Source: Mariniblastus sp. (GTDB taxonomy: Bacteria > Planctomycetota > Planctomycetia > Pirellulales > Pirellulaceae). From it: DNA of 64,000 nucleotides. The stretch covers positions 1-64,000 of the forward strand of contig JAKVBF010000011.1 of NCBI GenBank assembly GCA_022447555.1, in the 5' to 3' direction. Position 1 is the first letter of the stretch. Each line of letters opens with the position of its first letter. Made by a program: the position numbers and the translations under genes. A model generated the notes under the pieces. The model saw nothing but the letters and a program-made list of their open reading frames with translations, searched no databases and was not told where the DNA came from. Below are positions 55,338 through 57,731 of this stretch, one piece after another.

Positions 55338-56264
55338 ATGGAAAATCATTTTGCCGACCGTCTGATTACGGCCATAAAAACAAAACAAACGCCCCTCGTG
55401 GTTGGTCTCGACCCAAGGTGGGAGCGACTTCCCTCATCCCTGACTGGAAAAATTGACCCCGCCGATTTTAAAACCAAAGCAATGGCGTACCAACGTTTCT
55501 GTTGTGACATCATAGATGCCGTTGTCGGAATCGTGCCCGCGGTCAAACCACAGGCTGCCTTTTTTGAGCACCTTGGCCCCGGCGGAATGACGGCTCTTGC
55601 CAACGTGGTGGAACACGCTCATAAAAACGGCCTCATCGTCATTATGGACGCCAAGCGGGGCGATATAGGATCAACCGCTGAGGCATATGCATCCGCGTTT
55701 CTGGGGGTCAAACCGGCAAGCGTTTGGGGCTGTGATTCATTAACGATCAACCCCTACCTAGGTGATGACAGCCTACAACCGTTCGTTACGCAATGTCGGG
55801 CAACCGGAGCGGGTATTTTCGTTCTCGTAAAAACTTCAAATCCTGGCAGTCAAACGCTACAGGAGCTGTCTACCGATTCCAACAAACCGATTTACCAACA
55901 CGTCGCTGAAATGGTTCAGCAACTCACAGCGGAGGATCTCGGCGAGTTCGGCTATGGATCGATCGGAGCCGTGGTGGGTGCGACTTATCCACAACAACTG
56001 AGTGAGCTGAGAAGCCTGATGCCCAATTCCATTTTCTTGGTCCCCGGGTTGGGTGCTCAGGGAGGAACGGCTGCCGATGTCGCCGGAGGTTTTGATGATC
56101 AGGGACTGGGAGCCGTCATCAACAGTTCCCGCGCAATAATCTTTGCCTATCAGCGAGAAGAATACGAGGCCGTGGATGACTGGCAAACTGCGGTTGAATA
56201 CGCAACACGAGACACTGTCGAACAACTGGCAACCCATACTTCGGCGGGAAAACTTCGTGGCTGA
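55338..56264 (+). CDS. pyrF: Orotidine 5'-phosphate decarboxylase (group 2)
   Basis: Last step of UMP synthesis. 308 residues. VVGLDPRWERLP, AVKPQAAFFEHLGPGG, catalytic IMDAKRGDIGSTAEAYA (the group 2 signature with Lys-Asp elements), LTINPYLGDDSLQPF, FVLVKTSNPG, GAVVGATYP, and FLVPGLGAQGG with the phosphate-binding loop are all present. Longer than the ~230-residue group 1 enzyme, as expected for group 2. No clear Shine-Dalgarno. Not in an operon with other pyr genes; converges with the thioredoxin-like gene. Confidence 0.95.
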   Translation: MENHFADRLITAIKTKQTPLVVGLDPRWERLPSSLTGKIDPADFKTKAMAYQRFCCDIIDAVVGIVPAVKPQAAFFEHLGPGGMTALANVVEHAHKNGLIVIMDAKRGDIGSTAEAYASAFLGVKPASVWGCDSLTINPYLGDDSLQPFVTQCRATGAGIFVLVKTSNPGSQTLQELSTDSNKPIYQHVAEMVQQLTAEDLGEFGYGSIGAVVGATYPQQLSELRSLMPNSIFLVPGLGAQGGTAADVAGGFDDQGLGAVINSSRAIIFAYQREEYEAVDDWQTAVEYATRDTVEQLATHTSAGKLRG

Positions 56265-56333: not shown

Positions 56334-57731
56334 TCAGTCCCGCTTTTTAATTTCCTCACCAATCATGTCTTTGGTTTCCCGGCTTAATTTGTTCCAAGCC
56401 ACCCGTGTTTCTGTCCCATCGGTTTGCCAAATCACTACCGATCGGCCATCCAACGCAATGAATGTTCCTTGAATCGAGTGCGCCCCACTTGAATCGAGAA
56501 ACTGTTGAGGTGTGTCAAAAGAGAAAGCGATTTCCTTTTTCGCAATTCGCCCCAGGCCATCCGCCTTTAAACGTTGATTAGCAACATAGCGTTGGGCATC
56601 AAGTCCCAAGCGATCCCAGGGAATTTGCAATGTTTTACCTGATTCGGTCTCCAGAGCCACTTGCCCATCTTGAAAGCCGATATACGAACCCATCATTCGG
56701 TGCTCACCGGTCGAGTCCACAAATTCTCGAACTTGTGGCTTTGGCTCAGCGCCGCCGGTAACTCCCGCATTTTCAGCCTCTTGAACCAAACCGGCTATCA
56801 CTTTATCCAAATCAAAGCCTTCGGCAAACGGAGAACGGTGCCGAATGATTCCTCGGTGGTCGACGAGCAAAATGGTAGGGAATGCGTTGACACGAAAGGC
56901 GCCTACAATCGGTCCACCTTTACCGTCAAACCAAGATCGCCAGTTCAGATTGTTATCTCGGACCGCTTTTTTCGCCGTCTGTATCTCATCATCATTGTTA
57001 ACGCCCAATAAAACAAATGGGCGTCCACTATATTCATTAACGAGCGACCGCTCGTGACCATACATGGCCCGGCAAGGAGGTCACCAATCACCCCAAAAAT
57101 CGATCATCATGACTTTGCCGCGGTAATCGTCTAACGTAAAGTCTTCGCCGTCAAAATCGCGCCCTTCAATGTCACGAATTTCACTCCCAACAAAGGTCCC
57201 GGGCGGAGCATGGCTTCTCTCATGACCCGGCTGCTTAGGAGCGGACGGAGGCCTTCCCGCATCAACAGGTTCAGGGGCAGGGCTTTGGGCCGGTTGCCCT
57301 ATATCTGCAGTCTCTATCCCGGGCTGGTTCGACGTACTGGAATCACCACCAACCATTTCCGGTTGGTCTGGGCGGCTAGAATCGCCGCCACCTTGTGGCG
57401 TTTGATTTGGGCGCCCCAACTGACGGCCCGAATCCGCTACACGATCGCGCCCTGAATTGACCGGCGGTGAAGGATTCGTACCCCGACCCGACGATGGCTT
57501 CCCCGCCTGTGGTTGCGTGGAGGGGTCACGCGTCTCATCAACGACATCCGGACCGGGAACAAATCGCCGTTGCTCAGACGAGCTGTCCATCGGATCCGCA
57601 GGTGCTGAGTCCACATCCCTGTTTTTGTCCGCGACCGTTTCCGGCTCGCGCTGACAGCCCGCGAGCGTCAAAAGTAAACCGGCCGTAATTAAACAGAACT
57701 TGGCAAAACAATCAAACCAATGCGAACCCAT
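56334..57731 (-). CDS. Candidate selenoprotein: TlpA/thioredoxin-like lipoprotein with U-P-P-C motif and two SHD1 domains
   Basis: Read through one TGA, the product has 465 residues. ATG at 57731 (GGGGGAC upstream) starts a signal peptide with lipobox LTLAGC (Cys26). Residues ~27-170 are a Pro/Gly/Asp-rich linker. A TlpA-type thioredoxin domain follows: DDYRGKVMMIDFWGDW, then TGA (57081-57083, codon 217), then P-P-C-R-A-MYGHERSLV, and cis-Pro motif NAFPTILLVD. The TGA stands exactly where the first Cys of CxxC belongs, and the frame is open for 248 more codons, ending in two SHD1-like domains (REFVDSTGEHRMMGSY; QFLDSSGAHSIQGTF). Selenocysteine insertion is the favoured reading. A Cys-to-stop mutation or sequencing error is the alternative. 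Likely a lipid-anchored thiol/selenol oxidoreductase. Confidence 0.75.
57025..57067 (-). promoter_or_regulatory. Candidate bacterial SECIS stem-loop
   Basis: Downstream of the TGA at 57081-57083. The apical part is a perfect 6-bp stem ACGAGC/GCUCGU with loop GGUC (57040-57055); the loop begins 31 bases after the UGA. A lower stem CCAUGUAU with AUAU-A-GUGG (one bulged A) can form below an internal loop. A competing hairpin (57056-57069, loop UGUA, 16 bases after UGA) also fits. Loop G residues and spacing are compatible with bacterial SECIS elements as I know them. Not computed. Confidence 0.5.

Follow-up and report, generated by a model that had tools for sequence, protein, structure and literature searches.

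A probable selenocysteine-containing TlpA/ResA-like lipoprotein of Mariniblastus sp. and the conserved hairpin downstream of its in-frame UGA

The window gene and its predicted product

The DNA analysed here, a stretch of 64,000 nucleotides from Mariniblastus sp. hereafter called the window, contains on its minus strand a frame of 466 codons with a single internal stop, a TGA at codon 217. This TGA lies immediately 3' of a Trp codon and forms the first position of a U-x-x-C motif (W-U-P-P-C), the whole active site reading F-W-G-D-W-U-P-P-C-R-A-M-Y. The frame then continues with P-P-C-R-A and remains open for 248 sense codons in all, as had been stated in the first-pass annotation, before it ends at a second TGA. 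The latter was taken as a true stop because the hairpin sequence described below is absent downstream of it. A GGGGGA run was seen by eye 5' of the ATG. The gene adjoins an orotidine-phosphate-decarboxylase-like gene, which from its sequence is probably pyrF, and in two named Mariniblastus MAGs pyrF is likewise located close to the window gene's relatives. The features of the locus are listed in Table 1.

Table 1. Features of the window gene and its neighbour (positions in the window)
Feature	Position	Strand	Basis
Whole gene, predicted selenocysteine-containing TlpA/ResA-like lipoprotein, 465 residues, Sec217	56334..57731	-	read-through frame
Predicted signal peptide, lipobox LTLAGC, predicted lipidated Cys26	57654..57731	-	by eye from the translation
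Pro/Ser/Gln/Gly-rich linker, no Pfam match	57192..57653	-	translation and Pfam scan
Thioredoxin-fold domain (AhpC-TSA/Redoxin/Thioredoxin_8; ResA/TlpA/DsbE-like), active site GDW-U-P-P-C	56838..57191	-	Pfam, NCBIfam, PDB sequence, predicted fold
In-frame TGA, probably read as selenocysteine (U217)	57081..57083	-	frame and column alignment
Putative SECIS hairpin ACGAGC-GGUC-GCUCGU, 25 nt after UGA, under the H-E-R-S-L-V codons	57040..57055	-	cross-paralogue comparison
SHD1 domain 1	56577..56738	-	PF03983 score
SHD1 domain 2, divergent	56361..56498	-	score of the copy alone; repeated fold elements in the model
Terminal TGA, taken as true stop	56334..56336	-	no hairpin sequence after it
Orotidine-phosphate-decarboxylase-like gene (pyrF by sequence)	55338..56264	+	

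A Pfam scan of the read-through frame matched AhpC-TSA/Redoxin, with the best stretch at residues 181-298 (AhpC-TSA, 61.9 bits). In a 16-row alignment of the thioredoxin domain (A1), C42 (the column of the U), C45 and P110 are invariant, and Pfam, this alignment and the predicted fold concur in an AhpC-TSA/Redoxin fold with a [CU]xxC motif and P110 as the invariant candidate cis-Pro. The structure predicted for residues 176-465 from a 16-row alignment had a mean pLDDT of 87 and a pTM of 0.62. Of the two SHD1 domains annotated earlier, the first, at residues 332-385, is well supported (41.1 bits against a PF03983 gathering score of 23.7). The second stands less firmly: scored alone it reaches 19 bits, below the Pfam cut-off, and a joint scan of the C-terminal 141 residues gave the two SHD1 stretches at a lax E <= 1; the predicted model of this part shows a run of four strands and one helix twice.

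The TGA column in homologues and the selenocysteine machinery

A search with the read-through protein gave matches in at least 59 of 60 genomes at E <= 1e-10, the own genome counted. A further 100 stretches were fetched, and the thioredoxin domains of all loci from L023 on were aligned, giving 150 alignments. The codon in the U column was TGA in 83 of them, TGC in 47, TGT in 18 and another codon in 2, so that the column pairs TGA with 65 cysteine codons. The in-frame TGA at the position of the attacking Cys, as first annotated, is therefore not a chance occurrence. No further stop was present in the aligned domain of 80 of the 83 TGA rows, and the remaining 3 have a second TGA; one locus, L050, has two TGAs within its thioredoxin domain. 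Thirteen rows were removed because they matched another row exactly along 66 nt, some being one gene under two locus identifiers and others genes of different species that are alike over this length, which left 71 TGA rows, 64 Cys rows and 2 others. The TGA is retained in the orthologues of the window gene from other species (L024, L025, L026, L027 and L028), and by the tally of fetched loci a TGA gene is present in at least 29 of the 60 near genomes.

At E <= 0.001 the own genome gave 23 matches to AhpC-TSA, and each of eight among them carries one TGA. In six of these genes the TGA is at the U column, and in two it belongs to a U-P-P-F motif. The latter two, L072 (G000:C4:168834-169220) and L076 (G000:C3:108978-109367), are deiodinase-like: the protein of one matches iodothyronine deiodinase in Pfam (2e-33), the other being classed by its motif alone. 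No GGUC hairpin was seen at an equal spacing after the TGA of either gene.

Selection on the frame past the UGA was estimated over 178-247 codons. The dN/dS ratios of window-gene orthologues were 0.164 (L027/L028) and 0.039 (L024/L025), and those of four sister-group pairs were 0.024, 0.045, 0.065 and 0.073. The frame after the UGA is under purifying selection in these relatives (0.02-0.16 in six pairs, none of which includes the window gene itself), and no sign of decay was found in them. Of the ten pairs, the four that included the window gene (L064) gave no ratio as dS was saturated; their protein identities were 53-68%.

The source genome (4.19 Mb, 62 contigs, 97.5% complete) was searched for the components of selenocysteine insertion, and all four were found above their cut-offs. 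The tRNA-Sec match scored 68.6 bits (gathering score 47), and ARAGORN likewise called a tRNA-SeC with anticodon tca; SelA, SelB and SelD scored 569, 357.9 and 273.2 bits. SelD (L020, G000:C3:79091-79999; 304 profile positions matched) sits in an open frame of 733 codons and may therefore be fused to another domain. In 14 named control genomes, matches over cut-off were obtained for tRNA-Sec in 5, SelB in 2, SelA in 1 and SelD in 2. The tRNA-Sec model, unspecific near its cut-off, is thus not decisive alone, whereas tRNA-Sec, SelA, SelB and SelD are so jointly. A tRNA-Sec scan of 20 genomes gave 12 passes, five at 65-70 bits and the rest at 47-52 bits; the latter were taken for other tRNAs. One genome (G029) has a tRNA-Sec match of 65.8 bits and no SelA over the cut-off.

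A conserved hairpin 25 nucleotides downstream of the UGA

When the 71 sequences downstream of the TGA were listed, a 16-nt hairpin became apparent, which in the window gene begins 25 nt past the UGA. At a constant distance from the codon, 65 of the 71 non-redundant TGA rows have a stem of 4 bp or more capped by a GGUC or AGUU loop, compared with 1 of the 64 Cys rows; this loop rule was fixed only after the TGA rows had been inspected. The exact 12-mer GAGCGGTCGCTC occurs in 55 TGA rows and 1 Cys row. The six TGA rows that fail the rule have GGAC loops (4), a GGGC loop (1) or a weaker stem (1), and across all 71 the loop letters are GGUC in 63, GGAC in 4, AGUU in 3 and GGGC in 1. Each stem pair forms in 65 to 71 of the TGA rows versus 12 to 36 of the Cys rows. 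The stem varies little (7 rows have G-U for A-U, a few other pairs occur singly, and 6 rows have an A-G mismatch at the fifth pair), and with covariation so scant the case for the hairpin rests on conservation. The codons beneath it are frozen: GAG in 64 of 64, CGG in 68 of 68, TCG in 63 of 63 and CTC in 68 of 71 instances, these codons having shares of 0.32, 0.17, 0.18 and 0.20 in the remainder of those domains. In the genus, H-E-Q-E-L, spelled by varying codons, occupies this position in eight of 12 related Cys paralogues, so that the protein sequence here seems to be set by the RNA element.

According to a 2026 review (PMC13188914), the bSECIS model asks for G at loop positions 1-2, a spacing of 16-37 nt, a loop of 3-9 nt, a stem of 4-16 bp and at most -7.5 kcal/mol, and the 16-nt hairpin conforms to the model on all of these points. 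Folded alone, its 16 nt gave -7.9 kcal/mol. When the UGA and 54 nt were folded whole, the hairpin was in the minimum-energy fold of 28 of the 71 TGA genes, the window gene not being among them, with a median inner-pair probability of 0.06; once the 12 nt directly 3' of the UGA were omitted, it was in the best fold of 62 of the 71, the window gene included. A ribosome at the UGA would cover approximately the first 12 nt downstream, which could explain the return of the hairpin, as an argument and not as a test. The 54 nt of the window gene have no unusual folding stability (z -0.41), and an Rfam scan gave two matches, both below the gathering score, and nothing useful. Single-sequence folding was uninformative, and the hairpin emerged from the comparison across paralogues.

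The single Cys row with the hairpin, L080 of genome G026, has an unchanged core and a TGC codon. By sequence it reads as the orthologue of L056 (own genome) and L079 (G010), which both have Sec, and it pairs with L079 in the tree. It has W-G-H-W-C-R-P-C where the Sec genes have W-G-D-W-U-P-P-C, and its genome retains SelA. These features point to a recent Sec-to-Cys switch in which the hairpin would not yet have faded. Asp occupies the position two residues before the U column in 62 of 71 Sec rows, against 5 of the 64 with Cys. In a tree of 130 of the 135 rows, built on 131 columns and with many unresolved forks, just 3 independent pairs for this coupling were available on starred branches, with a sign-test p of 0.25, and another 28 Sec rows taken from the phylum include 9 with Y, F, H or N at the position; the coupling of Asp(-2) with Sec is a tendency only. 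The tree also places L078, a very distant Cys row (end branch 4.14), beside the window gene, which is very probably an artefact.

The pattern of UGA, 27 nt and GAGCGGTCGCTC was then used for counts in the genus and the phylum, which miss variants as the pattern demanded the exact core. Within the genus, 18 of the 28 genomes have it, at 55 sites in all, against 0 sites for the reversed-pattern control, and the other 10 lack it in its exact form. In the phylum sample it occurs at 117 sites in 73 of 392 genomes, the control giving 8 sites in 7 genomes. Upon translation, 109 sites have UxxC, 4 have UxxU and 4 have neither; the last may be chance matches. The 113 UxxC or UxxU sites fall in 69 of the 392 genomes and in 24 family codes. 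The UxxU sites (in G168, G364, G123 and G378) would be double-Sec motifs (TGA-x-x-TGA), which with the same hairpin core are also found in L137 and L140.

SelA was detected in 65 of these 69 pattern genomes versus 181 of the 323 others (Fisher, p 1.2e-10), at a threshold of E <= 1e-40 that lets in 7 genomes below the curated cut-off. The pattern genomes lacking it are G209, G231, G270 and G322. Among the 60 near genomes the association was not significant, SelA over the cut-off being present in 23 of 29 genomes with TGA genes versus 18 of 31 (p 0.10). Three of the six near TGA genomes without such a SelA match (G002, G003 and G018) have tRNA-Sec matches of 67-70 bits, two (G021 and G023) have SelA fragments, and one that is 80% complete (G004) has neither a tRNA-Sec nor a SelA fragment. 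Another near genome, G020, has a tRNA-Sec of 70.1 bits and SelA yet no match to the window protein at E <= 1e-10; its selenoproteins must therefore be others.

Proposed decoding of the UGA and comparison with known systems

The window gene thus very probably encodes a selenocysteine-containing TlpA/ResA-like protein, a predicted lipoprotein, the UGA at codon 217 being decoded as Sec by means of the downstream hairpin. That the UGA is read as selenocysteine had been suggested at first annotation, and the suggestion has gained support from the Sec machinery, the Sec/Cys column and the selection in relatives, to which the SECIS-like hairpin is now added. The competing suggestion made at the same time, a dying or recently broken gene in which TGC or TGT became TGA and the frame is decaying, has the merit that one substitution would give an identical local picture in a single genome. 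It is contradicted by the TGA kept in the five orthologues of other species, by purifying selection past the UGA among those orthologues (two pairs) and by the conserved hairpin at fixed spacing; a decayed gene was accordingly rejected as highly improbable. An error of sequencing or assembly at codon 217 might be suspected in a draft of 62 contigs, but TGA stands in the same column in at least 29 of 60 genomes and in five more paralogues of the own genome, which leaves this explanation with a negligible probability.

Equally negligible is a genome-wide reassignment of TGA, for example to Trp, by which the codon would be an ordinary one. The frame would indeed be open under such a code, but the window gene itself terminates in TGA, as do 11 of the 30 open stretches of at least 300 codons in the window (a mechanical count that may include stretches which are not genes), and homologues have Cys, not Trp, at this residue. 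UGA decoding competes with termination, and inefficient decoding might yield, besides the full selenoprotein, a short exported product of 216 residues that has a separate function. Export of the N-terminal lipoprotein and linker portion by itself is conceivable; however, the short form would be without a complete domain because the TGA sits mid-fold, and we regard such a mixed output as unlikely.

For the selenoprotein, the following mechanism is proposed. SelB carrying Sec-tRNA-Sec would bind the hairpin that begins 25 nt past the UGA, and at position 217 the ribosome would then insert Sec rather than terminate. The product would be a TlpA/ResA-type thiol/selenol-disulfide oxidoreductase, exported and anchored in the membrane through its lipobox, with a pair of SHD1 domains at its C-terminus. 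Within U-P-P-C, Sec217 would attack and Cys220 resolve, and in the lipidated protein the two would work as a pair in redox reactions at the surface of the membrane; our best guess for its role is the reduction of disulfides or peroxides at the outer face of the cytoplasmic membrane. More broadly, the hairpin of the Planctomycetota may have become locked into one gene family, a proposal to which we give even chances: SelB would read an almost invariant 16-nt element, the RNA would dictate H-E-R-S-L-V beside the active site, and duplicates that keep Sec would be bound to those residues. After a loss of Sec to Cys, the hairpin would linger, as in L080, and Asp(-2) would tend to change to His, which could tune the Cys, whose thiol is less acidic than the selenol it replaces.

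A gene caller unaware of Sec would split the window gene or call it broken, and the same miscalling threatens the five paralogues in the own genome and many genes of the phylum. The UGA with the hairpin core is a simple DNA pattern for finding such selenoproteins. Moreover, one 12-nt core at one spacing in 69 of 392 genomes and 24 family codes constitutes a natural series for tests of SelB-SECIS recognition.

The GGUC of the E. coli fdhF SECIS is the loop bound by SelB. The SECIS region, its letters matched to fdhF, shares GGUC with the window gene, a likeness compared at GGUC alone, but in fdhF it starts 18 nt past the UGA versus 31 nt in the window gene. The nearest solved proteins by sequence are thioredoxin-family proteins, ResA, TlpA and DsbE. 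For the predicted fold, the best PDB match was the thiol-disulfide oxidoreductase 4nmu (ResA by name; E 7e-12), and other ResA, CcmG and TlpA structures were among the best 50 matches, with approximately 140 residues covered. ResA, TlpA and DsbE/CcmG are thus among the best matches by profile, PDB sequence and predicted fold (4nmu ResA, 1jfu TlpA, 2b1k CcmG), but they carry Cys where the window protein would have Sec, and the fold matches stop short of the SHD1 tail. The NCBIfam models for ResA, TlpA and DsbE gave 56.9, 39.1 and 35.2 bits against cut-offs of 170, 230 and 123.15; the window protein is therefore like ResA/TlpA and not shown to be either.

Neither the window protein nor the domains of three relatives reached the cut-off of any NCBIfam selenoprotein model. 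Among these models, NF041054 ('ResA-like WAxxUGC motif-containing protein') is ResA-like as is the window protein, and a Sec protein by its name, but it has a UGC motif instead of UPPC, and the window protein scores 15.4 bits against its cut-off of 300. In the literature searched, which left most subscription papers outside, no paper was found that joins a selenoprotein with Mariniblastus, or SHD1 with Planctomycetes and thioredoxin; among papers on selenocysteine and Planctomycetota, none concerned such a protein, judged by title. Sec use has been described in two seaweed planctomycetes (PMC4807772), and members of the window gene's family may figure in the selenoprotein table S9 of that paper.

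UxxC selenoproteins of the TlpA-like (cd02966) and Redoxin families are listed in a table of the 2026 review (PMC13188914), and a UxxC 'thiol-disulfide isomerase-like protein' is part of the Sargasso Sea set (PMC1088965). As far as the available portions of these sources extend, they have in common with the window protein the thioredoxin fold, an attacking Sec and a Cys three residues on, but their entries mention neither a lipobox-linker-TlpA-SHD1-SHD1 architecture nor a hairpin of near-invariant sequence, nor families of paralogues in Planctomycetota. The window gene thus appears to belong to a known kind of selenoprotein, and the near-invariant shared SECIS together with the TlpA-SHD1-SHD1 architecture appears to be new.
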